The notes beneath the pieces are model-generated. The model was not told where the DNA came from, ran no database searches, and saw only the letters and a program-made list of their open reading frames with translations. A stretch of 64,000 nt of DNA from Prosopocoilus inquinatus (taxonomy: Eukaryota; Arthropoda; Insecta; Coleoptera; Lucanidae). Location of the stretch: positions 23,224,001-23,288,000 of the forward strand of contig CM069870.1 in NCBI GenBank assembly GCA_036172665.1, given 5' to 3'. Below are positions 41,282-56,943 of the stretch, piece by piece; position 1 is the stretch's first letter, and each line of letters begins with the position of its first letter. The position numbers were made by a program, and so were the translations under genes.

Positions 41282-42589
41282 ATTTACTAACGCTGAAGTC
41301 GTAACAATATTTACGAAACGAAATAGCAGTTCTCCTTTAAATTATGTTTTTTAATTTTTTTTACGCTTCACGTACTCGTACGTAATGAAGCATCATCTCG
41401 GGGCACCCACCGTGTTAACGTTAGTCGAGTGCCCACGGTTTCAATCTTTTTTTTTCCGGCGTAATGACTAGCAGAATAAATCACCATGGTGACACCCTAC
41501 ACATTATTCAATATTTCCACCCCTGCTGTGCGCTCTGGTTTCCTTCCAATTTACAGAGCAGGTAAATATGATTTGCATTATCTAATGCTCGCGATAACAC
41601 AATTAGTTGCCCGAGCCCGAAAGTTATATCGGAGTAATTGCTTTAGGTTCAATATACTTACCGTTGCGGCGGACGCCACTGACGTAGCAGTAATTGACGA
41701 GATTATTAAATCATTTCACAGGAAGGAACTCAACATATTTATTTTTTTTTTTTAATTTTTTAAAACAAAAAGATTCTGTTCGATTAAAAATTTGAAAATC
41801 TGAAAATCGGTGACAGTTGCAAAAAATATTAATTAATTACTAATCCTCTGTGTGAACAGTAAATATACATGGTATATTATCGGATGGAATCTTTCCGTTT
41901 GCTGGCTGGCACATTTCTCTTTCGTTACCTAACCAAGCCGAGCCGTTGAACAATCAGACATTTTAATAAGAAGTTATGTGTGTGTGTGTTGACGAAAGCT
42001 CGCGCGGAAGTGAAAAGTGATGTTACATAAAATTTATATTGTCTGCAGTTCGATGTCTCCTTGTATCATGTACTAATAATAATAATGATGGTGAAGATGA
42101 TAAGCCGACGGAACTGACGGAAATTAATTAGTATTGTTAATAAATTTCCCTTTCTCTCTGTCTCTGGCATATACAAGATATCGACATCGATGTTCAACAT
42201 TTACTTATTCTTCTTGTTAATTAGGAGTTAATTAACAAGAAGAAAGTGGTCCCTGTTGTGTATGCAAGGAATTAAATTTAATGGGAAGGAATTTCTGAAG
42301 GACGCAGATGATAATTTAATAATAATTAATAATAATAATATTTATTTTCAATAAAAAAACAAAGAAGATACATCATTGTTAGAAATTGAAAATGTCAAAT
42401 GTAACAATACTTATATAGATACTTTGTTATGAACTCGTCATGTAGATACATTTATTATTTAAGTATTTCCACGCACGGTTAGATATACCGGATGCACCTC
42501 GCTAACCAGGCGTATAATTTACATCAGCAAAATTTAAAAAAAATAAATAAAAAATAAAACTTTCACCGCCTTAAAATACCGAAAAATTC
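41282..42589. other. AT-rich DNA, hairpin and microsatellites, no supported gene
   Basis: An 89-codon ATG frame at 41486-41755 starts in a good context (ACCATGG) but has no known domain and ends in poly-Phe. A perfect 16-bp-arm hairpin (TTCTTCTTGTTAATTA, 42208-42244) and TG and AAT microsatellites are also present. Confidence 0.4.
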
Positions 42590-43500
42590 AAGCCCAATTG
42601 AAATTAATAAGGCCAACCGAATTCAACTGAGGTTAACCCAACTCAACTCAAGAGACTATTCTAAAATATTGAAATATCATAAAATTGAAAACTTTCAAGA
42701 AATTCAATTATGTACAATTCTGTCCAATTCAACTCAAGGTTAGCCCAACTCAACCTAACTAGCCAACCTAAACAGTAAATTAGAAATATTGAGTAATAAA
42801 AGAAAAACCCGAAAAACTGAAACACAAAAAAAAGTAAAACTCTCAAGAAATAAAATTCAATTTAAATTTAGTCCGATCCAATGCAAGGTCAGTCGAACTC
42901 AACCTAACTTTACCCAACCCAAACAACAAATTATAATTAAGAATAACAAGAATAACAAAACAAAAACCCGAAAGTCAGTTGAAAGTAAGCGCAATACAGG
43001 GTTACAACTAATTAGAGGGCCACTATGGAGATTTCGTAAACTATAAGAGATACATAGATGGTTAAATTACTGAAAAGTTGCGTTATCTTGAGGTCTAAAA
43101 AAACATGCAAAAGAATCTTTTCATTCGTTTTTGAAATATCTTCAAAAAACTGAATATCTCATTTTCGAAAATCTCAAATATCTTATTTATTTCTTAAGAT
43201 AAAATCATAAAATTCTGTGTTTTTATATTAAATTCCACGGACAACCTAATGCAGTTCGAAGAAATAGGTTGGCTTTGACAGTTCCGCAGATACGACTGTC
43301 AACTGTTTCTTTTATTATGGACGCTACCTTAGATATTCAGCAAATCTCAAAGTCAACTGAACATTCTTACACAAGTAAATTTTTTTTTTAAATACTTTAA
43401 AAAATATAAAACTTTATACATGGTCAATCCAATCGAATTGACATTAACCAAACTTCATCTAACATAAGTAAACGATTAAAAATTATTAGAAAACTAAAAG
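42590..43500. repeat. Degenerate tandem tract D, copy 3
   Basis: Words such as CCAATTCAACTCAAGGTTAG, CCCAACTCAACCTAACT and CCAATGCAAGGTCAGTCGAA recur between A-rich spacers, matching the tracts at 3065-4170 and 13500-14110. As there, hammerhead-bearing foldbacks follow directly. Confidence 0.6.
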
Positions 43501-43707
43501 TAAAGATTAAAAAAAAAAATTAATTCGCCTATTTTAGTCGCCAGTTGCCATTTTAGAAAAAATGATGTCAGCCAAAAAATTACCAAAGGTAGTATATGTG
43601 GCGATAAATCACCAAGGTTGGTAACGCTGTGTTTTTAATTGAAATTTTTGTTTTTCATTTTCTTTTGTGTTCGCGTTGACGATAAAAGAAAATTTGAGAA
43701 CTGGTGA

Positions 43708-44035
43708 CGTTATTCAATCGTTTCTCGTCAATCAATTATCTTATTTAATTGAAATTAACCTCCGCCCACAATAATTTTTATATCCGTAGATACGTATTTC
43801 GGCAGCTACGGCCATCTTCAGTACGCTACCAACTTAAAAGCACTAAAAGAGATCTAAAAACAACCTATTAGATGATTAGGTTGTTTTTAGATCTTTTTAG
43901 TGCTTTTAAGTTGGTAGCGTACTGAAGATGGTCGTAGCTGCCGAAATACGTATCTTCGAATATAAAAATTATTGTGGGCGGAGGTTAATTTCAATGAAAT
44001 AAGATAATTGATTGACGAGAAACGACTGAATAATG
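43708..44035. repeat. Head-to-head foldback with two family 2 hammerhead motifs
   Basis: Inverted repeat centred on about 43872. From outside in, both arms hold CGTTTCTCGTCAATCAATTA, AATTAACCTCCGCCCACAAT, the hammerhead-like motif, then GCACTAAAA and AGATCTAAAAACAACCTA. Minus motif: TTTC 43797-43800, TCTTCAG 43815-43821. Plus motif: CTGAAGA 43922-43928, GAAA 43943-43946. The minus motif keeps a 4-bp stem I (CGTA/TACG); the plus motif has one mismatch there. Stem II is shortened in both. Confidence 0.65.
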
Positions 44036-44255
44036 GCCTAAGCTGCCATCTTCAGTACGCTACCAACTTAAAAGCACTAAAAAGATCTAAAAACAACCTA
44101 ATCATCTAATAGGTTGTTTTTAGATCTTTTTTAGTGCTTTTAAGTTGGTAGCGTACTGAAGATGGCAGCTTAGCTGCCGAAATACGTATCTACGGATATA
44201 AAAATTATTGTGGGCGGAGGTTAATTTCAATTATCTCTTAAACCACAGTCTCCTT
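44036..44255. repeat. Second foldback with a half and a complete family 2 motif
   Basis: Same arm sequence as the preceding foldback, centred on about 44108. The left motif (minus, TCTTCAG 44049-44055) has lost its GAAA and stem III half. The right motif (plus) is the best family 2 copy. The outer edge AAACCACAGTCTCCTT (44237-44252) is the complement of the edge at about 14135. Confidence 0.65.
44152..44194 (+). ncRNA. Hammerhead-like motif, family 2, best copy
   Basis: CGTA (44152-44155) pairs with TACG (44191-44194) as stem I. The core is CTGAAGA (44156-44162). Stem II is GGCAGC-TTA-GCTGCC (44164-44178). GAAA is at 44179-44182. A short stem III with an ACGT loop ends in ATC, with C44190 as the predicted cleavage base. 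The T at 44163 between core and stem II has no partner, which departs from the usual consensus and may lower or abolish activity. Confidence 0.5.
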
Positions 44256-44489
44256 TACTATTTTAGTTTTAAATTATCTTATTTATTTAGTTTTTAATTT
44301 TTGCCTTTCGCATTTCTTTTGATTTCGTTGTTAAAATCATTCAATTGTTATTAGTTTAAAAATACTATTATTATTTTATAATTTTTGTCTTCCACTTTTC
44401 GTTTGTTTTCGCGTTATTGAATTAGAAAGAAAACTTAGGAATTGTTTCTTTCTGCGGTAGCGTTATTCAACTGTTTATACCAATTAATA

Positions 44490-44740
44490 GTTATTTTATT
44501 CAGGTATTTTTGACATTAACGCGACTTTTTGCTGAAAGATGATGAACCAAAAACGACTTGTCCAATTTATTCGCGAATAAATTGGACAAGTAGTTCTTGG
44601 TTTGCAGAGAGAATGTTGAGCTACATCTCTGCTGATGAAGCCCCAAACAGGGCTGAAACAGCTGTACAGAGGCTGCTCGAGGTTTTCAGTGCAATTAAAA
44701 ACGATTTGCAACAAAATTTTGAAAAACCTAAACTTTAGAA
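44490..44740 (+). repeat. Family 1 hammerhead repeat unit
   Basis: Contains an inverted pair around GACTTGTCCAATTTATTCGC (44553-44606), the complete ribozyme motif (44616-44680) and a tail AAAAACGATTTGCAACAAAA. The tail recurs at 4288-4315, and, reversed, at 13701 and 36286. Frames across it simply mirror the inverted repeat. Confidence 0.65.
44616..44680 (+). ncRNA. Type I hammerhead ribozyme, family 1, complete
   Basis: Stem I: TTGAGC (44616-44621) with GCTCGA (44675-44680), an internal loop, then CTCTG (44627-44631) with CAGAG (44667-44671). Core: CTGATGA (44632-44638). Stem II: AGCCC/GGGCT (44639-44643, 44650-44654) with a six-base loop. GAAA (44655-44658) then C starts a minimal two-pair stem III with an AGCT loop, ending GTA; predicted cleavage follows A44666. 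Every conserved core position is present. The short stem III and bulged stem I are typical of the type I hammerheads found in Penelope-like elements and animal retrozymes. Confidence 0.78.
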
Positions 44741-46121
44741 ATAATAGTAATCACAGATTAATTTTAAAGACAAATTTAATTTGAATGCTTTTTCAGATAA
44801 TTTCGAACGCAAAATGTCAGAATTTTGTGTTTGTGTTTAAAAAATGTAAGTTTTATTTCATTGTAATGTATTTATTTCTCTTCCTTTTTTTAAAGAGCGC
44901 ATCCCTTGAAAACCTAAAAGAAAACCTAACCTAAACCGACAGAAAATCCTAACTGAATCCGTAACCGAAATCAGCTTAAAATTAAAACCGAGACCTTAAC
45001 CCTAACCTTTTATAACATGCGTGTACATCTCTGCCTGTAATACATTACTCATAAAACAAAAGTAGTCATAGTAGTCATTCTTGTGTTTTTATGTGTTTGA
45101 TATGGCCGATCATTTTTAAATATGTTATACAAGTAAGAGGTATACTAAACAAGCAGCAGTTTTACAGATATGATAAATTTTACATACAAATTTTAAACCT
45201 TACTTTTCTTTTTTTGAGCAGTGTGTATTCTTCATAAATGGTAACGATTGAACTCGTTATGTCCTTACGAAAAAATAAAACAGTTTTCGAGAAAATCGCA
45301 GCTGAAAACTTTCCCAAAACTGTTTGAGAACCACTGGCATGTAATTCTCAAAATTATTAGAGCCAGTTGCACCAAACACTTAAGCCCATCTCAACTTTAA
45401 GTGCCGCTTAGAATGTGAATTGTATTAATAATATGCAGGGACAAATATCACATTATAAGCAGTACTTAAATTTAAGCTCGGCTTAAGTGTTTGGTACAAC
45501 AGTGATATATTAGGAGTTTCAAGCTTTGCACAACTATCACAGTCACACTGTATATGTATATATATATATATAAAATCTATAGCATACACGTTTTTCCATT
45601 TTGGGAGTCTCTCTCTTGGTAATTAGCCGGTAAAAAAGAACCTCAATAAAAATCAACTGGTTCGTCGTGGTTATCGTTTCAAAGGAACGCAATTTACGCT
45701 AATTTAAATTCTGCACGCGAATTTTGAATAACTTCCCAGCTTAATGATGAGAGGAGCTTGAGTTATGAAGAGGCGCACGGCGCAAAAACCTGACTTACGC
45801 GGACTGAAGGCAGAAAGAAGTCGAGCGTATTCAATTCGCTAGAAATAATTACGTGTGCTACCCGACAGAGAGCGTTACGTTAATAAGCACGGACAGGTAA
45901 TGAAGTACATTTTAGGCCTCTCAGGTTTTGAAAGGCCTGAAATTCGCTCTGCATTTTTGTAGTGTCCACTCTTACATCTGTACACGGTGTCCCAAACGTC
46001 TGAAAAAGTCCAAAATGTCCCTTTAAATTCATTCATAATTAAGAAAATGTCTTAACAGAAGTTTGTAGGTATTCATTCCGCATAATTTAAAATTATTTTC
46101 AAATTTACAGGTTATTCATTT
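44741..46121. other. AT-rich DNA with a small MITE and a shared fragment
   Basis: 45366-45500 is a foldback with ends GTTG.ACCAAACACTTAAGC. 45981-46100 matches 38609-38728 (GTCTGAAAAAGTCC, TTTAAATTCATT, AAGAAAATGTCTTAAC). An AT microsatellite lies near 45552-45573. No gene supported. Confidence 0.5.
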
Positions 46122-47976
46122 AATAATAATAATAACATATCTTTATTAGTTCAGGCTATTCGTTTACAATCATACATGTAATATATTTATATTCTAAGCT
46201 ACACTAAAAGTAAATTATAGTTAATCTGCGTTTATAGTGTACCTATCTTATATTTTAAAATCAGTTTTAATAATATTAATTAACGCCTTCTTGAAATTAT
46301 TTAGATTATAATTTTTGATTTAATTTGGTAAATCGTTAAACATTCGTAACCCTTTATAAAATAATGATTTATTTGTTTTACTTTTAGTACAATTACTAAC
46401 AGAAAATTTACTTGCACTTCTTGTCGGATAACTGTGTATATCACTGGCATATACAGTGAGAATCTTGTAACGCTGCACATAGACGAAAATTACGTGATCA
46501 GATAATACATTTCTGAATCACATAAAATTGCACATAGGGGTTTTAACATTACGTTGCTATAGTTACTGCTTAATTCTTAAGGCTGAATCATTTACAAATT
46601 GCACATAGGAAGTATTAAGGAAGGGAATAATTGATCTATCTGGAAATTTGGAGACAAATAGCGCAAATACCTATGTCAATGAAGCTCCATTTGAGAATAA
46701 TGTGTACCTACATTTCCACTTTTTCGGCGGTTGTATACATTTTATAATAAATCGAAAGAACAGTTTAATTCAAACTGACAATTTAAAATCAGTAGTGTCA
46801 TTACTAACAACGCACGGTAACCATGGCGAATGAAATAAATTTGGAAATATTGTGATAATGCTTCCGTTGATAATAATTGCTATGTGCAGTCTTATAAGAT
46901 TCTCAGTGTATAAGTCGCTCACATATGTACGTAGGACGGCATTTTTTTGTGTTTCATTTTGTAAATAAAAATCATTTTTTATAAATAATTCTCTGTTCAA
47001 CACTCATTAAATTTAGAGTCATTAACATGTTATAAATAGGAGTGTATATACTACGTTTTAAAATTTGTCGCATCGCTCTATTTTGTATTTTTTGTAACTG
47101 CTGTATTTCATTTTTATTTAAGTAGAAAAGTACCGTGGAAAAAATTCTAAATGAGGAGCAATAAAAGCTTTATATAACAAACTCTTAGTATATAAGCTTA
47201 ATGATTTTCCTACTCTGTACAAAAAAATTACTTTTTGTGACATTTTTCGCATTACATAATTTGCATGACTTTTAAAATTGAAGTTACAATCGATTATGAT
47301 GCCTAAATATTTAATTTCATTAACTCGTTCAACTCTTATATTGTTTATTAATACATCTTTGGCTATTTTTAAGTTATTTAATTTGTAATAATTATAAACT
47401 TTGTTTTACTCATATTTGCACACAAACTATTATTACATAACCATCTATAAACATTATCCAATTCCATATTCATAGTATCGATCACATTGTTTATGTTATT
47501 ACATCTTATATATAGCATTGTATCATCGGCAAACAAGCAAATTTCACATTTTTTTACAATTTTTACCATATCATTAATATACAATATAAATAGAAGTGGC
47601 CCCAAAACTGTTCCTTGCGGGACACCATGTTTAATGTCAAAATCATTGGAAACGTATTCCTTGAATTTAACTTTTTGCTTCCTGTCACTTAAGTATGATC
47701 AGATCCGTTCCCACACCGTATCACATATTCCATAATGCGCCTCAGTTTCGTCAATCTCTTTTAACCATTTCATACAATAATTATAATTACTGATTCACAA
47801 GAATGTTGTTTACGGAATCCCGATTGTTTTTCAGTTATGATATTATTTTCGTCACAATAATTTATTAATTGTTCTTTCACAAACATTTCAATTATTTTTT
47901 CATAGGGAGATACTGTATTTATGGGTCTAAAGTTTTCACAACGATTTGAGTTCGCCACTTTTGGAACTGGGGTAAC
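46122..47976 (-). pseudogene. CR1/Jockey-like non-LTR element: reverse transcriptase C-terminal half and 3' end
   Basis: Downstream half of the element split by the Gypsy insertion. The minus strand first encodes RT segments with NFRPI (near 47925) and EKQSGFR (near 47825). Then, after a frameshift/stop, come HGVPQGTVLGPLLF (47590-47625) and the catalytic LFADDT (near 47533), and next the KTKF segment. Codons continue to about 46260 once the MITE at 46454-46908 is disregarded, including a YPTR motif common near the C-terminus of CR1/Jockey-type RTs. The 3' end is an ATT microsatellite tail (about 46122-46140). Several stops and frameshifts make it inactive. Confidence 0.75.
46454..46908. mobile_element. 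MITE inside the non-LTR element (TA-flanked)
   Basis: Inverted ends CAGTGAGAATCTT...GCTGCACATAG and complement, flanked by TA (46452-46453, 46909-46910). Leaving the MITE out brings the flanking RT codons back into one frame, which supports the boundaries. TA target duplication indicates Tc1/mariner-type mobilisation. No transposase inside. Confidence 0.8.
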
Positions 47977-47980
47977 GTAC

Positions 47981-48305
47981 TGTTACGTTTCTAGGGTTTG
48001 AGTTTATTTATTTTCACGAATAAAACACTCGATAAAAACTTAACCGTAATTTAATGAAGCTTAAAAACTAATTTATTTATTACAATTTATTTTCACACTA
48101 AAATCTAACTTCGACTATCGCTGCTCGAATTCGACTGACTCGTGAGTCAACTCCGGGCGATTTTATATCTACTGTTGGCGTCTGGAAGTCTCGATGCTGG
48201 AAGATTCTAGTTTGCTCGATATGGGCCCCGAACGCGTGACGGCCGATGATACATCGAAGCGGCCGACTTCTTGGCGCCTTGCGCTAAGCCGGTTGGTGCG
48301 CCACA
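47981..48305 (-). repeat. 3' LTR of the Gypsy element
   Basis: 325 bp. On the plus strand it reads TGTTACG...GCCACA; in sense it begins TGTGGCGC and ends CGTAACA. It includes a TATAAAA box (complement at 48161-48167) upstream of a CGCCCGGAGTTGACT start region and several AATAAA-type signals. The pol frame runs into it and stops at 48207. Confidence 0.95.
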
Positions 48306-51300
48306 CTGCCCCCTTCTTAAAAACGTTTCGTCTCGAAATGTTCCTGGTGATAGTCTTGAAGGAGGGTGTCGGAATCTACATGCTGGCCCATTCTTGCAAC
48401 TTCCCGTCTGGAAGAAGTAACAGTCTACGGTTTTGCTGTTGCTGACTGTTGCCTGTGGGTGGTGGCTGCAGACTAGGACTTCAATTCCCGTTCTGTGGAA
48501 GATGACTTCCAGCATGCTTCGAATTACTCTCCAGTCTAGTCCGTCCAATCCGCAGCCCAATTTGGGGATGGCTAACTTCATCTGATGGGTCTCTATTAGC
48601 TGTCTCCTTAGGCTATATAGGGCTCTCCACATACTTTGATAGTCAGGTTTACCGCTTGATGTCTTCTTAGTGACTAAATAATGCACGTGGCGCCTCCGAT
48701 CTGCCGTCGAATCAATGATCTGCAAGCTCTTGCCTACCACGGGATGCTGTCTTCGTAGCTCCTCGATTTGGCCAAATTTCTTCCTAAACACCTGAGCGAT
48801 TCCTTTGGACATTTTCAGGTCTTCTGCTACGCAGTGGGCCAGACTGTACTCCGGTGGCACTTTAAAGAGATCTTGTTGCTTCTCCGTGGTCACTCCAAAC
48901 CGTGCCTTGCTTCCTTCGGCGTGATGAGACATGAAGGTTTCGAAGTTCACTTCGGAAACTTGCGCCCTTTGTACTGTCCCTTCATCTGCTTCTCCATGGT
49001 AAGGGGCTATCCGGTTGAAGTGGATTACTTTGGGTTTGCCATGGGGGACCTTCTTGATGCGGTAAACGACGTCGTTGATCCGTTTCATCACTTTGTAAGG
49101 ACCTTCCCAAGAGGTCTGTAATTTTGGGGAGAGGCCTCGACGTCTTTGGGGGTTATAAAGCCAGACCAGTGCTCCAGGTTGGTATCCCCCGTGTTGAGCG
49201 TTGATGTCATAGTGCTCCTTCATCCGATCGCTGGCCGTCTGTATATTGTGACGCACTTGGTTGTGGATATCATCCATTTTCCTGCGTAATTTGCTCACGT
49301 AATCTTCGTCGGCAGAGACTTCGCCAGGCTTCACACCAAACTTCAGGTCGCAGGGCAGTCTCGGCTCTCGCCCGAATACCACTTTCGCGGGAGTCTCCCC
49401 TGTTGTCTCATGAACAGATGAGCGGTATGCCATTAGAAACAGGGGGATGTACGTGTCCCAGTCCCTCTGATGATTGGAAACGACCTTGGACAAATGTCGG
49501 TTGATGGTTCTATTGAACCTTTCCACCATTCCGTCCGACTGTGGGTGGAGTGCAGTTGTTCTAGTTTTTCGTACGCCGAGCAGAGTACACACGTTCTTGA
49601 ACAAGGCCGATTCAAAGTTCCTTCCTTGGTCTGAATGCAGTTCCATAGGTGCACCATACCGACTGATCCATTCCCTGACAAGGACTTCCGCAATAGTGAC
49701 CGCCTCTTGGTTAGGTAGGGCGTAAGCTTCAACCCACTTACTAAAGTAGTCCATTACCACGACGATGTACTTGTTTCCACCATTCGTTTCTGGAAACGGG
49801 CCGGCTACATCGATGGCAACTCTCTCAAAAGGACTTCCAACGTTGTACTGTCTCATGGGAGCCTTACCCCGCCTGTGGGGACCGTTACTGGCTGCGCAGA
49901 CTGTACACTTTCTGCACCAATCCTTCACGTCTTCCTTGCAGTTCACCCAGTAAAATCTTTCGCGCACCTTCTCCATAGTCTTCTTAACTCCCAGATGCCC
50001 TCCCGAAGTTCCATCGTGAAGTTCCCTCAGAACTTCTGGCACCCTATTCTTGGGGATCAGTAACTGTGTCTTCTGTTCCATGCCTTCCTGATTCTCTATG
50101 CTTCGTCTCAGAAGACCACGATCCAACACTATGGAGTCCCACTGCGCCCAGTATGATTTTACGGACGGTGCACATGGTGCTACCTCTTCCCAGGTAGGCC
50201 TCGCGTCCCTGCTTTTCCATTCTAGCACTAATTTCAAATCCGGGTCGTTCTCCTGGTCTCTTCGCAGTTCTTCGCCTTGCCATTTGTCATCAACAATGGC
50301 TGTCCTCGCAGTCGTGGCTACTTTCTCGTCCAAACGACTACAGTGCTTACAGTCTTCGGCACAGGGTCTTCTCGACAGAGCATCGGCATTTCGATGGCTA
50401 GTTCCTGCCCGATGCTGAATTTCAAAATCGTACTCCTGAAGTCGTTCGATCCATCGTGCAACTTGCCCTTCTGGGTTCTTGAAACGGAGAAGCCATTTTA
50501 GAGCGGCGTGGTCGGTCCTCAGCAGGAAGCGTCTACCATACAAGTACTTGTAGAAGTGTTCTATCGTTTTTACGACGGCTAGCAATTCCCTTCTTGTGAC
50601 GCAATAGTTTCGTTCCGGCTTTGATAGGACTTTACTGAAGTAGCCGATCACCTTCTCTTGCCCCTCTTGTATCTGGGAGAGTACGCCACCAATCCCAACG
50701 TTGCTAGCATCTGCGTCCACGACGAACTTGCCTTCCGGGAGAGGATAACTCAGAATAGGAGCACTAACCAAGTACTGCTTTAGTTGTTCAAAGCCAATTT
50801 GACACTGTTGGTCCCATTCAAATGGACGACCTTCTTCAGTGAGTTTTGTTAACGGCTTAGCAATGTCTGCAAATCCAGGAACGTAGCGCCGATAGTAAGT
50901 GCACAGGCCAAGGAAACTCCTTATTTGGTGTTTATTTGTGGGAGTTGGCCAGTCTTTCACCACCTGAATCTTCACAGGGTCCACGGCGATTCCGTTTCCA
51001 TTAACAATGTGCCCCAGGTAATTCACTTCCTTCTGGAACAGGTGACACTTCTTGAGGCTAAGCTTTAGTCCAGCTCCGCGAAGCCGCTGGAACACTCCTT
51101 CCAGGTTCCTTAGGTGGTCGTCGAACGTCTTTCCCACGACAATTATGTCGTCAAGGTACACCATGCACGTTGTCCAGGACAGACCTTTCAGAACCGTCTC
51201 CATTAACCTCTCGAATGTCGCTGGGGCATTACATAACCCGAATGGCATCACTGTGAACTGCCACAGACCCATACCAATGGAAAACGCCGTCTTTTCTCGA

Positions 51301-52631
51301 TCTTCGGGCGCCAGCTCCACTTGCCAATATCCACTCTTTAAGTCCAAAGTTGAGAAGATCTTTGAGCCGGCCAGGGTGTCCAGGGTATCATCAATCCGGG
51401 GCAAGGGATAGCTGTCCTTCTTGGTGACATTATTGAGTAACCGGTAGTCTACACAGAACCTGGTGGACCCATCCTTCTTCTTCACAAGCACTACTGGTGA
51501 CGCCCACGGGCTGCTTGATGGTTCTATTACATTATCCTTTTCCATCTCGCGAATAATGCGTTCCGCTTCCTCACGCTTCGCCAACGGTAATCGCCTTGGA
51601 GCTTGACGGATAGGTCTTTCTTCTCCAGTCTCTATTTTGTGTTTCACGACATCAGTTCTTCCCTTGGATCCATCTTCTACCTCGAATACATCTTGATAGC
51701 GGCCGATCAGATTCTTTGCTTTTGTCTTCTGGTCTGGAGTCAATTCCTGGGCTGTTGACATAACCATTTCCCATAATTTCTTTGGGACTTTCGCTTCTGG
51801 CACGTTTGTTTCAAGTTGCCGGGAGATGGAGGACACCATGGTGCAGCTTCCCAAGATTGTTCCTTTCTTGATATTGACAGAGAAACAATTGACGTTCATC
51901 AGGCGGACAGGTACTTCCTTCTTCGCCGTCAACAACATTTTCCCAACGAGGACTCCTCTTCCAATCCTTTGATCATCAGTATTAGGTTCAACCATAATGA
52001 CTTGCCCATCTTGAAAAACACCGTCCAGTTTTGCGTCGACGATAACCTCAGTCCTGCTGGGTAATACAACGTCTTCAGCGAGGACTACTCGAGCGGCCAC
52101 GTCCCCTCGTTGATGTAGAACCAACTCCTCATTATTGACCGCCATCACGCCACGCTTTAAGTCCAATTGGAACCCGTGGGCACACATGACGTCCATGCCC
52201 AAAATTGCCTCGTCCTCTATATCTGCCACCAGTGCACGGTGTTTTATTGGAGTTGAACCAATGGTGATGATAACTTCTACTTCACCGTGGACAGTTGCTG
52301 ATGTTCCAGTTGCAGTTTTCAGTCTCCACTTGGTCGGCTCGGTGCGTCCAGATGACTTAATGACGTCGGGTCTTAGGATGGTCTTCGTCGCACCCGTATC
52401 CAACAACATGGTGTGAGGAATGTCATCAATGGTGACATCCACGAAGACACTGCTGGTTAACTGCCGTAGGAAAATTACTTGGTTGGCTTTCGTCTTTGGG
52501 GGCCTTTGAATACGGGTCGACGTTTGCCCCTCTGCACCGACCCGGCTTAGTTTAACTGTGGCTTCCTTGGATCCTGTCTGGGCTTTGGACATCGCCTGCG
52601 AACATGTCCTTCCTCCTGGCAATTCCAACAA
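48207..52631 (-). CDS. pol: Pol polyprotein: protease, RT, RNase H, integrase, macrodomain, CCCH finger
   Basis: An open frame of 1474 codons in the -1 frame relative to gag; the frame opens with TTG and the first ATG is codon 14, so expression by frameshift from Gag is likely. Residue positions: protease DTGA at 78-81; reverse transcriptase about 350-560 with YLDD at 492-495; RNase H about 630-755; integrase HHCC zinc site at 872, 879, 906/909 and 912; integrase core D941, D1001, E1037 (DD35E); GPY at 1177-1179. Then, unusually, a macrodomain of the TARG1/OARD1 type at about 1248-1390 (SLAHCVAED, KKFG, TKK 1321-1323, GCGLDGLDW 1359-1367), and a C-X7-C-X5-C-X3-H zinc finger at C1404, C1412, C1418, H1422. 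The last 33 residues come from LTR sequence. The ADP-ribose hydrolase role is inferred from motif conservation. Confidence 0.93.
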   Translation of the reverse strand: MLELPGGRTCSQAMSKAQTGSKEATVKLSRVGAEGQTSTRIQRPPKTKANQVIFLRQLTSSVFVDVTIDDIPHTMLLDTGATKTILRPDVIKSSGRTEPTKWRLKTATGTSATVHGEVEVIITIGSTPIKHRALVADIEDEAILGMDVMCAHGFQLDLKRGVMAVNNEELVLHQRGDVAARVVLAEDVVLPSRTEVIVDAKLDGVFQDGQVIMVEPNTDDQRIGRGVLVGKMLLTAKKEVPVRLMNVNCFSVNIKKGTILGSCTMVSSISRQLETNVPEAKVPKKLWEMVMSTAQELTPDQKTKAKNLIGRYQDVFEVEDGSKGRTDVVKHKIETGEERPIRQAPRRLPLAKREEAERIIREMEKDNVIEPSSSPWASPVVLVKKKDGSTRFCVDYRLLNNVTKKDSYPLPRIDDTLDTLAGSKIFSTLDLKSGYWQVELAPEDREKTAFSIGMGLWQFTVMPFGLCNAPATFERLMETVLKGLSWTTCMVYLDDIIVVGKTFDDHLRNLEGVFQRLRGAGLKLSLKKCHLFQKEVNYLGHIVNGNGIAVDPVKIQVVKDWPTPTNKHQIRSFLGLCTYYRRYVPGFADIAKPLTKLTEEGRPFEWDQQCQIGFEQLKQYLVSAPILSYPLPEGKFVVDADASNVGIGGVLSQIQEGQEKVIGYFSKVLSKPERNYCVTRRELLAVVKTIEHFYKYLYGRRFLLRTDHAALKWLLRFKNPEGQVARWIERLQEYDFEIQHRAGTSHRNADALSRRPCAEDCKHCSRLDEKVATTARTAIVDDKWQGEELRRDQENDPDLKLVLEWKSRDARPTWEEVAPCAPSVKSYWAQWDSIVLDRGLLRRSIENQEGMEQKTQLLIPKNRVPEVLRELHDGTSGGHLGVKKTMEKVRERFYWVNCKEDVKDWCRKCTVCAASNGPHRRGKAPMRQYNVGSPFERVAIDVAGPFPETNGGNKYIVVVMDYFSKWVEAYALPNQEAVTIAEVLVREWISRYGAPMELHSDQGRNFESALFKNVCTLLGVRKTRTTALHPQSDGMVERFNRTINRHLSKVVSNHQRDWDTYIPLFLMAYRSSVHETTGETPAKVVFGREPRLPCDLKFGVKPGEVSADEDYVSKLRRKMDDIHNQVRHNIQTASDRMKEHYDINAQHGGYQPGALVWLYNPQRRRGLSPKLQTSWEGPYKVMKRINDVVYRIKKVPHGKPKVIHFNRIAPYHGEADEGTVQRAQVSEVNFETFMSHHAEGSKARFGVTTEKQQDLFKVPPEYSLAHCVAEDLKMSKGIAQVFRKKFGQIEELRRQHPVVGKSLQIIDSTADRRRHVHYLVTKKTSSGKPDYQSMWRALYSLRRQLIETHQMKLAIPKLGCGLDGLDWRVIRSMLEVIFHRTGIEVLVCSHHPQATVSNSKTVDCYFFQTGSCKNGPACRFRHPPSRLSPGTFRDETFLRRGQCGAPTGLAQGAKKSAASMYHRPSRVRGPYRAN
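48306..48319 (-). promoter_or_regulatory. Polypurine tract
   Basis: Sense TAAGAAGGGGGCAG directly upstream of the 3' LTR; primes plus-strand DNA synthesis in LTR retrotransposons. It also encodes part of the pol C-terminus. Confidence 0.85.
48462..48890 (-). other. Captured TARG1/OARD1-like macrodomain segment of pol
   Basis: Encodes pol residues about 1248-1390. The arrangement SLAHC, M..GIA..F.KKFG, YL.TKK...KP.Y and P.LGCGLD.L.W is that of the small macrodomain proteins that remove ADP-ribose from glutamate/aspartate (TARG1/OARD1). Both catalytic residues of that family (human K84 and D125) have counterparts: K1322 or K1323, and D1363. The segment lies in frame between the integrase C-terminal domain and the CCCH finger, with no stop. 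A host OARD1-like gene as source is inferred. Confidence 0.85.
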
Positions 52632-54007
52632 ACCAGCGGCCTCTTCTGCTTGAAGACCTGTTCCACAATGCGGCGAACATCCTCGGCGGTGGCATACTCC
52701 CTGGCTCGCTCCTTTATAGTAGATCCCACCTTGGCGTTAGCGGATTCTTCCTCTTCTTCCTCTTGGAAGTCCATAGCCGCTCGCACCTTGACATGCCCTC
52801 TTGAGACTCGTCTCGCTGCTTCAAATTCCAAGGCATAAGCTAATGCGTTCTTGGACGTCTTCGGATGGGTCATTCTCAATGCCTGCTGGTTGTCTGGGTC
52901 ACGGATTCCATCTATGAAGGTCTGCACCGTCAAACATTTGAGGAATTCAACAGGAGCTGTGGGATATGCCAACTGGGCCAGACGCGCAACGTCTGCTTCG
53001 AATTCCTGAAGAGTTTCTCCGGATTTCTGACAGCGATTCCTCAACTGCGCATGGTATACCTCGGTCAGATGGGCCTGTCCGTAACGCATTTCCATCCTAT
53101 TCACCAGCTTGTCGAAGTCTTCTTGTTCCTCTGGCGGCATCGTCTGCAGCACATCGATAGCGTCCCCTCTCAAGGCCACAATTAACGAAGTGGCTTTTTC
53201 GCTGGCCGTCCATCTGTTTGCCTTTGCTGCTGCTTCGAACTGTTTGAAGTAGTTGGGCCAAGAAGACTTTCCATCGAACGTTGGTGGTTTTATCTTCAGT
53301 TTAGAATTTTCTGTTGGTCCTTCCACAATTCGGGTTTCATTATTTTCTAGTACTTCTACTGGTGGCTGATCCCCGAACACTCGCAACCCCGCCATGATTT
53401 GTTCCAGATTTTTGATTTTATTATCCTGCTGGAATATTATTTCTTCCACATTTTCTTGAAGGTTTCTTGTTTCTTCCGATATTTTTACCACTAGTTTATC
53501 TTCGAGTCCTTTCGTCTGTTCTAGAAATTCACCCTTCAAATTTCCGGACTGTTCTAGAAGTTTCTCGTCGAAATTTCTGGATTGCTCTAGAAATTTCTCG
53601 TCTAAGTCTCTAGATTGTTCCAACAATTTATTTTGTAATTTGTCGAAATTTCCAGATTGTTCTAGAAGCTTCTCCTCTAAATTTCTGGATTGTTCTTGAA
53701 GCTTCTCTAAATTTCCAGACTGTTCTTGAAACTTCTCGTCCAAATTTCTGGATTGTTCTCGAAGTTCGTCCTTGAAATTTCTGGATTGTTCTCGAAATTC
53801 ATCCTTCAAGATTTTATTAAAATCGACGGGACCACACGAAATTTCGAAAAGGAACGTCTCTGGATCTTCACCAGCTGTTAACAAATCGGATCGGAGACGC
53901 TGTTGAAGTGCGCCTTTCAAACCACAGGTTTCTAACTCTCGTTCTTCCAATTCGGTTTTTAATTCGGCCACTTTTAAGTCTTTCAACAACACTTTTCTCG
54001 TAGCCAT
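52547..54007 (-). CDS. gag: Gag polyprotein with SAP-like domain, coiled-coil repeats and CCHC knuckle
   Basis: 486 codons from ATG at 54007. Residues about 7-43 (LKVAELKTELEERELETCGL and following) match the SAP fold pattern L.V.ELK..L...GL...G.K..L..RL, a DNA-binding helix pair. Residues 68-170 are a tandem array of about 11-13-residue units with the core LEQSRN.DEK, predicted coiled coil. Residues about 245-400 form the typical retrotransposon Gag/capsid region (W..Y...FE, then L.G.A...L, then the major-homology-like Q..L.RC). An acidic stretch (EEEEEE, about 416-421) precedes the zinc knuckle C460-X2-C-X4-H-X4-C473. The product packages RNA and assembles particles; the SAP domain could tether to chromatin (inference). 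Confidence 0.92.
   Translation of the reverse strand: MATRKVLLKDLKVAELKTELEERELETCGLKGALQQRLRSDLLTAGEDPETFLFEISCGPVDFNKILKDEFREQSRNFKDELREQSRNLDEKFQEQSGNLEKLQEQSRNLEEKLLEQSGNFDKLQNKLLEQSRDLDEKFLEQSRNFDEKLLEQSGNLKGEFLEQTKGLEDKLVVKISEETRNLQENVEEIIFQQDNKIKNLEQIMAGLRVFGDQPPVEVLENNETRIVEGPTENSKLKIKPPTFDGKSSWPNYFKQFEAAAKANRWTASEKATSLIVALRGDAIDVLQTMPPEEQEDFDKLVNRMEMRYGQAHLTEVYHAQLRNRCQKSGETLQEFEADVARLAQLAYPTAPVEFLKCLTVQTFIDGIRDPDNQQALRMTHPKTSKNALAYALEFEAARRVSRGHVKVRAAMDFQEEEEEESANAKVGSTIKERAREYATAEDVRRIVEQVFKQKRPLVCWNCQEEGHVRRRCPKPRQDPRKPQLN
52550..52556 (-). promoter_or_regulatory. Candidate -1 frameshift site (sense GTTAAAC)
   Basis: Sense GTTAAAC lies immediately before the gag TAA stop (52547-52549), in phase as G TTA AAC. 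Slipping back one base gives GTT AAA and continues in pol. The heptamer is a known variant of the X XXY YYZ slippery class. Gag and pol frames overlap by 85 bases (52547-52631). Confidence 0.55.
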
Positions 54008-54094
54008 TGTTTTTTTTTTTTTTTCTATACTGTACTTATTTAATAATCTGATTAAATTTAATTTACTTTAAATTGTTTATTTATTTGCACAAAC

Positions 54095-54110
54095 CCCACA
54101 CCTGACACCA
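54095..54110 (-). promoter_or_regulatory. tRNA primer-binding site
   Basis: Sense TGGTGTCAGGTGTGGG begins one base after the 5' LTR end. TGG complements the tRNA CCA end. The complement CCCACACCTGACACCA has the layout of a leucine tRNA 3' end (discriminator A, GUCAGG-type acceptor stem); the tRNA identity is from memory. Confidence 0.75.
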
Positions 54111-54111
54111 C

Positions 54112-54436
54112 TGTTACGTTTCTAGGGTTTGAGTTTATTTATTTTCACGAATAAAACACTCGATAAAAACTTAACCGTAATTTAATGAAGCTTAAAAACT
54201 AATTTATTTATTACAATTTATTTTCACACTAAAATCTAACTTCGACTATCGCTGCTCGAATTCGACTGACTCGTGAGTCAACTCCGGGCGATTTTATATC
54301 TACTGTTGGCGTCTGGAAGTCTCGATGCTGGAAGATTCTAGTTTGCTCGATATGGGCCCCGAACGCGTGACGGCCGATGATACATCGAAGCGGCCGACTT
54401 CTTGGCGCCTTGCGCTAAGCCGGTTGGTGCGCCACA
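54112..54436 (-). repeat. 5' LTR of the Gypsy element
   Basis: 325 bp, identical by eye to the 3' LTR. The promoter TATAAAA (complement at 54292-54298) lies 15-20 bases upstream of a likely start in GGAGTTGACTCACGAGTC. The transcript reads toward lower coordinates through gag and pol. Confidence 0.95.
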
Positions 54437-54440
54437 GTAC

Positions 54441-55663
54441 GTTATTTTCCATTTGCTTGGAAACACACCATACTCCAATGATGTATTTATAACGTCCAAA
54501 ATACGATCACCCACAACCTCACAAGCATCTTTTAAAACCACCGTGGAAATCCCATCTTCGTATCCATTAGAATTTTTAAGAACATCCACAATTGATAATT
54601 GATCTCAAGTCCTTCATTTCCATTTTCTTAAATTTTTTGATTTTAAAGTCACATTCATTAATTGAAGTTGTTCTTATACTGAATTTAGAAATCGCATTGA
54701 TTATATCATTTATACTGTCTATGAAATATGCATTAAACCTATTTGCAATCATTTCAGATGTATTTATTTCAGTGTCATAAAATATTACGCTATTATTTAC
54801 AGATGTTTTTTTATTTCCCAACACATTTTTTATATTTTTCCAAGTTCCTTTACTATTATTTTTATTAGCATCAATTACACTACGTAGATACTCTTATCAT
54901 TCCAATGACTTTATTTCTTAGTAGTTTAAATTCTTCCCATACTCCGGTTACTTTTGTTATCATTGCCTCTTGGTATTTGTAGTTTCGTTCTCTCATTGCT
55001 GAAATAATTTCATAACTAATCAATTTATTGTGCTGAAATCTTTCGGGCATCTCACTACTTATTAAAGGACACATTGAGGTAAATACATTAGATATGTCAT
55101 TTATAATGTTATTCTTCAACATTTGCCATACCATTCTTCCATTTCAGATTTCTTAGATTTTTTTGAAATTTCTCGTTATTTATAAGTACGTTTTAGAAAT
55201 ATGACTTTTTTATTGTTATGTCTTAAAATATCAATATTCAATGTAATAATAGAGTGGTTACTGATTCTTGGTGTTTGGTAAACTTTGCAATGTTTTTATT
55301 ATTAGTAATAACAAAGTCAATTAATGTTGCACTATTTACATTAATTCTAGTCGGTTCCTTAACCATTTGTTGAAATCCGTTTTTGTAAATTAAATTCTTG
55401 CATTTATTACTGTAATAAGTGTCATTGTTTAAGTCAAAATTAAAGTCTCCGACTATAACTGCATTTCCGTCAAATTCAGTACAGTTTTCAACGAGGTTCC
55501 CAAAATAGTCCATAAAAACCGCGTCATTATTTTGTGGTGGATGATACATACAAATTCTTACGACTTCAGGGTTAGTAAATAATAATCGTCGACTGATTTC
55601 AAAAACAACTCTTTTAATACAACACAAATTACACGTATAATAATCCACAACACTTATTTCAAT
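54441..55663 (-). pseudogene. CR1/Jockey-like non-LTR element: endonuclease remnant and RT N-terminal part
   Basis: Upstream half of the element split by the Gypsy insertion. 55238-55648 encodes an endonuclease/exonuclease/phosphatase-type fragment (VGDFNFDLNND near 55440, LIDFVITN near 55310). 54880-55237 and 54576-54824 are linker segments in changing frames. 54441-54589 encodes the RT entry motif YGVFPSKWK, interrupted at the Gypsy target site. Frameshifts and stops are frequent. The 5' part (start of endonuclease, ORF1) is missing; the remnant ends where the mariner begins. Confidence 0.75.
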
Positions 55664-56943
55664 CCGTGGGCTGCTGGAAAATTTTCTGGAATCTAGTAGC
55701 TCTAGAATTGTTAGCGTTTATCAACTGTCATATTTGAAAAATTTGACGTTTTTCGCCTATAATTCTATTGACAGTTCCTATCCAAGTGAACCAGTTTTGT
55801 TTGTACAACATTTGAGAAAAAGTAATTTTGTGTAAACATGGAAATCTCGCGTGAAAATTTTCGTGCCATGATTTTTTACGATTTCAAATATGGTCTAACG
55901 CCGAAACAATGCCTCGATCGGCTTCATTTGGCTTTTGGAGATGAAGAACCATCAAAGAGCAGTGTTTATAATTGGTTTGCCGAATTCCAACGTACACGTA
56001 CCTCTTTCAATGACGAATTTCGTGAAGGTCGTCCATCAACATCTGTTGTTGCCACTAATGTAGATGCTGTGCATGAAACGCTTGAGCGAGAACGACATGT
56101 GACATACCGTGAGATTCAAGCATCCTTACGCATTGACATGAAAGCAATACACCAGCTTTTGCATGATCACTTGAACGTACGAAAGTTTTGCAGTCGTTGG
56201 ATCCCACACAATTTAACAGAAGCACAAAAGCAGGGTCGTATCAAATGGTGCGAAGAAATGCTCAAGAAATTCAATGGAGGTCGTTCAAATTTAGTTTATA
56301 ACATCGTTACTGGTGACGAAATGTGGATCTATTCGTACGAGCCAGAAAGTAAACAACAATCTACCGTTTTGGTATTTCAAAATGAACCAAAACCAACAAA
56401 AGTTGTCCGTTCACGCAGTGCTGCGAAGCAAATGATTGCTTGTTTCTTTGGTTTAACTGGACATGTAGCAACCGTGGCTTTAGAGGATCGAAAAACCGTG
56501 AATGCTGATTGGTATACTACAATTTGTTTGCCGGAAGTCATCGATCAAATAAAAAGAAACAATCGAAATCGACGAATTATTCTCCATCATGACAACGCAG
56601 CTCTCACGGTTGATTTTTTGTCCAACAAAAATATTGACGTAATGACTCATTGTCCATATTCACCTGATTTATCACCTAATGATTTCTTTTTGTTCCCAAA
56701 TATCAAAAATAAAATGCGTGGTGAGCGATTTTCGTCGGCTGAAGCAGCGGTTGAAACATTCCGGACACTGGTTTCTGAGGTACCATGTTTAGAGTGGAAA
56801 ACGTGCTTTAGAACTTGGTTCGAGCGTATGCAAAAGTGTATTGACGTTAAAGGCGAATACTTCGAAAAACAATGATACCGTTTACCAAATTTCATATGCG
56901 TTTTTTCATACCGTTTCCAGAAACTTTTCCAGCAGCCCACGTA
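55663..56943 (+). mobile_element. Mariner element, 1277 bp
   Basis: Element 55665-56941 has terminal inverted repeats CGTGGGCTGCTGGAAAA.TT plus TCTGGAA, 26 of 27 bases matching. The right side is flanked by TA (56942-56943); the left flank is TC (55663-55664), presumably a mutated TA. Inserted at the 5' edge of the non-LTR remnant. Length and structure are typical of mariner. Confidence 0.88.
55838..56875 (+). CDS. Mariner transposase (in-frame deletion in catalytic domain)
   Basis: 345 codons from ATG, uninterrupted. N-terminal paired helix-turn-helix region (about 1-110) with the GRPSTS linker motif; catalytic domain with D160 (VTGDEMW), D252 (HHDNA) and D282 (YSPDLSPNDFFLFP). Mariner transposases have 34 residues between the second and third Asp; here there are 29. 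The missing segment follows HHDNA, where an SHT-type motif is normally found, so about five codons have been lost in frame. The protein is probably inactive despite the open frame. Normal role: cut-and-paste transposition at TA in the nucleus. Confidence 0.88.
   Translation: MEISRENFRAMIFYDFKYGLTPKQCLDRLHLAFGDEEPSKSSVYNWFAEFQRTRTSFNDEFREGRPSTSVVATNVDAVHETLERERHVTYREIQASLRIDMKAIHQLLHDHLNVRKFCSRWIPHNLTEAQKQGRIKWCEEMLKKFNGGRSNLVYNIVTGDEMWIYSYEPESKQQSTVLVFQNEPKPTKVVRSRSAAKQMIACFFGLTGHVATVALEDRKTVNADWYTTICLPEVIDQIKRNNRNRRIILHHDNAALTVDFLSNKNIDVMTHCPYSPDLSPNDFFLFPNIKNKMRGERFSSAEAAVETFRTLVSEVPCLEWKTCFRTWFERMQKCIDVKGEYFEKQ

Follow-up and report, generated by a model that had tools for sequence, protein, structure and literature searches.

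The window analysed here, a stretch of 64,000 nucleotides from the beetle Prosopocoilus inquinatus (Lucanidae; assembly GCA_036172665.1, contig CM069870.1, positions 23,224,001 to 23,288,000), carries on its - strand a complete-looking long terminal repeat (LTR) retrotransposon of 6,456 bp, whose pol open reading frame (ORF) runs on behind the integrase into a predicted macrodomain of the TARG1/OARD1 type and a CCCH zinc finger (Table 1). The two LTRs, 325 bp each, show 0 differences, and GTAC lies on both sides of the element. Both the order of the Pol domains, namely protease (PR), reverse transcriptase (RT), RNase H (RH), and integrase (IN), and the TG..CA LTRs with a short target duplication are those of Ty3/Gypsy elements (Metaviridae), and the element is a recently active member of this group. 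No env ORF was found after pol, nor does any further - strand ORF of at least 100 aa overlap positions 42000-52000; because the pol stop (48207-48209) falls within the 3' LTR, there is no space for env behind pol. The putative primer binding site presumably resembles the 3' end of tRNA-Leu.

The macrodomain matched the structures of human TARG1 (4j5q/4j5r) with an E-value of 8e-29, and its predicted fold is that of a macrodomain, closest to TARG1. By the alignment offset, K1322 and D1363 are the equivalents of the catalytic K84 and D125 of TARG1. An earlier note on this DNA had proposed that the pol frame continues from the integrase and its GPY-type end into a TARG1/OARD1-like macrodomain with counterparts of the catalytic K and D; both proposals were borne out, the match being highly significant in sequence as well as structure comparison, and a chance match of motifs was rejected on the same grounds. 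Taken together, the relation to TARG1, the fold, and the catalytic dyad predict an ADP-ribosylhydrolase domain. Human TARG1/OARD1 (C6orf130) and the macrodomain of bacterial DarG are the closest known systems; in contrast to them, the domain described here is part of a Pol polyprotein along with a CCCH finger, and it has four extra residues before the K84 strand of TARG1. The finger, which the earlier note does not mention, lies about 10 residues behind the macrodomain and matched PF00642 with 27.9 bits. Its spacing fits the C-x7/8-C-x5-C-x3-H pattern of CPSF30/CPSF4-like fingers. Its top PDB chain was CPSF4, with an E-value of 8.7e-16 that is summed over the fingers of that chain, the best single finger reaching an independent E-value of 0.002 only. 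In the structure model, residues 145-185, which make up the finger part, have a predicted local distance difference test score (pLDDT) < 50 and hence no confident structure.

Table 1. Features of the Ty3/Gypsy element, with positions in the window.
Feature	Position	Strand	Basis or remark
5' LTR, TG...CA, 325 bp	54112..54436	-	identical to 3' LTR
3' LTR, 325 bp	47981..48305	-	identical to 5' LTR
Target-site duplication GTAC, 5' side	54437..54440	.	flank sequence
Target-site duplication GTAC, 3' side	47977..47980	.	flank sequence
Putative primer binding site, directly after 5' LTR	54094..54111	-	sequence only
gag ORF of 486 aa with SAP domain, repeat-like middle rich in glutamine/glutamate, and CCHC knuckle	52547..54007	-	profile search
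pol ORF, 1474 aa from TTG; frame differs from gag	48207..52631	-	ORF list and profile search
Aspartic protease	52188..52442	-	PF13650, 41.2 bits
Reverse transcriptase	51003..51485	-	PF00078, 131 bits
RNase H	50430..50816	-	PF17917/PF17919
Integrase, H2C2 zinc domain and core	49551..50057	-	PF17921, 74.9 bits; PF00665, 49.3 bits
Integrase C-terminal domain (p58_C / GPY-type)	49002..49103	-	PF22938, 45.4 bits
TARG1/OARD1-type macrodomain, pol residues 1248-1390	48462..48890	-	sequence match and predicted fold
K1322 codon, equivalent of TARG1 K84	48666..48668	-	alignment
D1363 codon, equivalent of TARG1 D125	48543..48545	-	alignment
CCCH zinc finger (C-x7-C-x5-C-x3-H); closest PDB fingers are those of CPSF4/CPSF30	48360..48434	-	profile and PDB match

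A protein database search with the region matched 125 of 498 candidates. Among the 120 matches listed, which are mostly copies from two species, 116 belong to two longhorn beetles, Aromia moschata and Molorchus minor, and four to metagenomes. The equivalents of K84 and D125 are retained in 117 of these 120 relatives, the exceptions being one change of D to G and two gaps at K, and both residues are present at 63 of 63 loci (58 distinct places) taken from the P. inquinatus genome itself. The finger pattern C-x7-C-x5-C-x3-H after TV[DE]C occurs in 107 of the 120 (92 under a stricter pattern); the other 13 lack it as annotated. When the macrodomain alone served as the query, 11 proteins were recovered, including fragments from Pyrocoelia pectoralis and Leptinotarsa decemlineata in which an integrase end precedes the macrodomain. 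Fusions of RT, integrase, and macrodomain, for which the earlier note had wished to see other insects searched, are present in other beetles. Identity to the window element is 79-82% in RT (three proteins long enough), 74-86% in the integrase core (four), 48-64% in the protease (three), and 51-61% in the macrodomain (seven). One L. decemlineata protein (P0124), named ADP-ribose glycohydrolase OARD1-like isoform X2, bears the p58_C end of an integrase, so that part of a retrotransposon has here been labelled a host gene, and several Molorchus copies are named Cleavage and polyadenylation specificity factor in UniProt, probably owing to the CCCH finger. Beetle genes annotated as OARD1-like or CPSF-like may therefore be retrotransposon pieces.

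Within the 650-Mb genome of P. inquinatus, a search with a 167-aa query spanning macrodomain and finger yielded 1,419 candidates. Scores were computed for 150 of them; the remainder may belong to other families. All 150 scored places are 98-100% identical to the query and 149 have no internal stop, it being noted that copies devoid of the macrodomain could not appear with such a query. Independently of that query, a 42-mer of the window RT was found, with at most 3 mismatches, at 918 genome sites, and its reversed control at 0. A private chimera, which the earlier note would have read from family copies lacking the segment, is rejected by the many copies in the same genome and the fusions in other beetles. 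Twenty-five of the 150 places have an open frame of at least 1,940 codons, probably with gag and pol in one frame, whereas the window copy has two frames. A 3.5-kb locus (L034) combines a copy of the window family with a second macrodomain, 42% identical, in which K and D are kept.

TARG1-like macrodomains are not confined to the window family but occur in further Gypsy families of the P. inquinatus genome. A second family carries one after the integrase (loci L040, L041, L049, L052, and L056), and in further families or subfamilies it stands before RT (L004, L006-L008, L039, L042, L043, L046-L048, L054, L057, and L069-L071). These latter domains lie behind the protease wherever that side was checked, and the position between PR and RT was found in L057, L046, and L069. 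Scores against the Pfam Macro model PF01661 were 37.2 (L057), 34.5 (L040), and 25.3 bits (L046), all above the gathering cut-off of 22 bits; the L069 piece gave no match to this model at E 0.01. The CCCH model had no match in Pol of either L057 or L040, in the pieces compared. Given the PR-RT placement in other families, the benefit of the domain seems not to be bound to one position in Pol. A swap of modules between L057 and L042 was considered, since their RTs are 99.4% identical and their macrodomains 67%. It is not needed: over most of the frame synonymous divergence (dS) is high, and its lowest values, 0.17-0.33, fall in a stretch of RT in which the two may have exchanged sequence locally.

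Constraint on the macrodomain is supported by comparison of coding sequences. For five pairs from different subfamilies, which overlap in members, the ratio of nonsynonymous to synonymous divergence (omega) was 0.13 (L042/L057), 0.16, 0.17, 0.19, and 0.26, and bootstrapping placed the upper bounds at 0.23-0.48. Between L057 and L042, nonsynonymous divergence was 0.19-0.32 in three alignment windows of the macrodomain, 0.39-0.59 in those of the flanking linkers, and 0-0.03 in RT. Omega well under 1 between subfamilies and retention of K and D lend support to the earlier suggestion that the domain is kept under selection.

What the module does for the element can be proposed with moderate confidence: the TARG1-type hydrolase and CCCH finger at the end of Pol would remove mono-ADP-ribose added by the host, helping the element to escape silencing or damage. 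Synthesised as part of Pol, macrodomain and finger would travel in the particle or the pre-integration complex, where the macrodomain would strip mono-ADP-ribose off Glu/Asp in proteins of the element or the host, or off nucleic acid. The modification would be added by PARP-type host enzymes in the course of retrotransposition, its removal would allow the element to evade ADP-ribosylation-linked silencing or damage, and the finger may anchor the enzyme to element RNA or cDNA. We infer a role in retrotransposition from the activities of TARG1 and DarG and from changes of mobile elements in flies. TARG1 removes ADP-ribose attached to Glu/Asp and shares with DarG the reversal of thymidine-linked ADP-ribose in DNA; its K84A mutant gave no rescue (PMC8501950). 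In flies lacking PARP-1, eight mobile elements changed significantly (five up, three down); three of the eight are from the gypsy superfamily, to which nine of ten further rising elements also belong (PMC7712786).

Several points weigh against this reading. First, the statistics are weak for most of the ten further rising fly elements, and the effect of parp-1 may, according to the authors, be indirect via repressors (PMC7712786). Second, the window domain itself scores 20.1 bits against PF01661, just below the gathering cut-off. Third, the macrodomain evolves faster than RT between species (51-61% as against 79-82% identity). Fourth, three bootstrapped closer pairs have an omega of 0.33-0.37 with bounds that include 1, and close pairs range over 0.19-0.53, plus values of 0.81 and 1.50 that derive from 4 and 7 changes. 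Codon changes in the macrodomain number 7 nonsynonymous and 11 synonymous across 29 fetched copies of the window family, a proportion that is biased low because the copies were chosen as best protein matches; the integrase part has 26 and 17 and the finger plus tail 5 and 4 (28 copies each). Finally, there is no pointer to which ADP-ribosyltransferase the module would oppose.

Viral macrodomains are regarded as a counter to PARP-based defence. TARG1-like macrodomains of arthropod viruses were found in BFVD, in VP8 of Kadipiro virus (A0A8E0KJF2, 42% identity), in the thrips virus Frankliniella flavi-like virus 1 (A0A7G9IR66, 32%), and in the isopod virus Armadillidium iridescent virus (A0A068QL15, 32%). 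They represent the same kind of domain in parasitic elements of arthropods, which fits a general pressure, although these are viruses with other protein contexts and not retrotransposons. Twelve phage records had a match, the five listed among them being at 34-38% identity; in IMG/VR, none of 10 pattern stretches was confirmed as a macrodomain relative.

Other roles can be envisaged. An action on nucleic acid instead of protein, in which ADP-ribose is taken off element RNA ends, cDNA, or DNA bases in a repair like that of DarG and TARG1 with the finger as RNA/DNA anchor, is rather unlikely, given that the CCCH model has no match in L057 and L040 and that no DNA or RNA ADP-ribosyltransferase is known to act on retroelement cDNA in insects. 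Less likely still is a reader of ADP-ribose that holds the integration complex at ADP-ribosylated chromatin, for example at break sites, with hydrolysis as an incidental property. In the window family and L040 the macrodomain directly follows the C-terminal domain of the integrase, a placement that would suit such a reader, and chromoviruses carry a chromodomain at the integrase end; retention of both catalytic residues in nearly all listed relatives, and the location off the integrase in L057, L046, and L069, speak against it. That the domain is a functionless passenger, captured once and hitch-hiking on a successful element, appears very improbable: the very recent amplification indicated by identical LTRs could spread any passenger, but module, dyad, and finger are shared by several beetle or metagenome lineages at the macrodomain identities given above, and related families show the low inter-subfamily omega. 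An equally improbable service to small molecules rather than to element defence, by O-acetyl-ADP-ribose deacylation or ADP-ribose recycling, could appeal to the other PDB name of the human protein, O-acetyl-ADP-ribose deacetylase 1, and leaves retention in Pol of several retroelement families unexplained.

The origin of the domain was addressed with macrodomain trees, in which the window family held together (97/96). Approximately unbiased tests did not reject a single clade of the window family and L040 (p 0.42), a separation of all elements from hosts (p 0.36), or a single clade of all PR-RT forms (p 0.37). The 18 host rows comprised 12 dipterans and six others and were without any beetle host gene, since flies made up most of the 120 matches listed out of 6,984; the trees allow more than one count and direction of acquisitions, and a beetle host gene is a possible source. 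No host OARD1 gene of P. inquinatus was recognised among 151 matches, for which 150 of 1,306 candidates were scored with elements leading, and not every match was inspected. A broader scenario is put forward tentatively and with more doubt than the removal of ADP-ribose itself: beetle Ty3/Gypsy elements may have acquired a TARG1-type domain at least twice, behind the integrase and between protease and RT, as a counter-defence against an ADP-ribosylation-based restriction of retroelements in insects that has not been described so far, under the same pressure that would have led insect viruses to take up TARG1-like domains.

Ty3/Gypsy elements with accessory Pol domains, such as a chromodomain or dUTPase, likewise carry an additional domain inside Pol or attached to it. 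The extra domain here differs in being of the ADP-ribosylhydrolase type and in occupying two places of Pol in different families. Epsilon-like endogenous retroviruses (ERVs) of ray-finned fish have, according to a review, additional ORFs with macro domain proteins (PMC4977317, citing Basta et al. 2009) and are likewise retroelements with a macro-domain gene; they are vertebrate retroviruses described as having additional ORFs, whereas the window element is an env-less insect Ty3/Gypsy element with an in-frame TARG1-type domain. No report of a macrodomain in a Ty3/Gypsy element was found in the open-access full-text literature, a coverage outside which preprints and most subscription journals fall. 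Retention of a TARG1-type domain by high-copy genomic Gypsy elements, and at two positions in Pol, would carry the PARP conflict over to retrotransposons and, if true, would indicate that insects use ADP-ribosylation to defend themselves against such elements. The hypothesis is open to direct test, as the domain is small, with a predictable fold and known catalytic residues.

Around the element, the flanks (47381-47980 and 54437-55036) joined without it form an unbroken stretch with a degraded frame, the translation of which, judged by eye, reads across the junction like the RT of a non-LTR retrotransposon. Further along, window positions 55838-56875 hold an ORF of 345 aa with a Mos1-type helix-turn-helix (PF17906, 29.8 bits), a mariner-like transposase.
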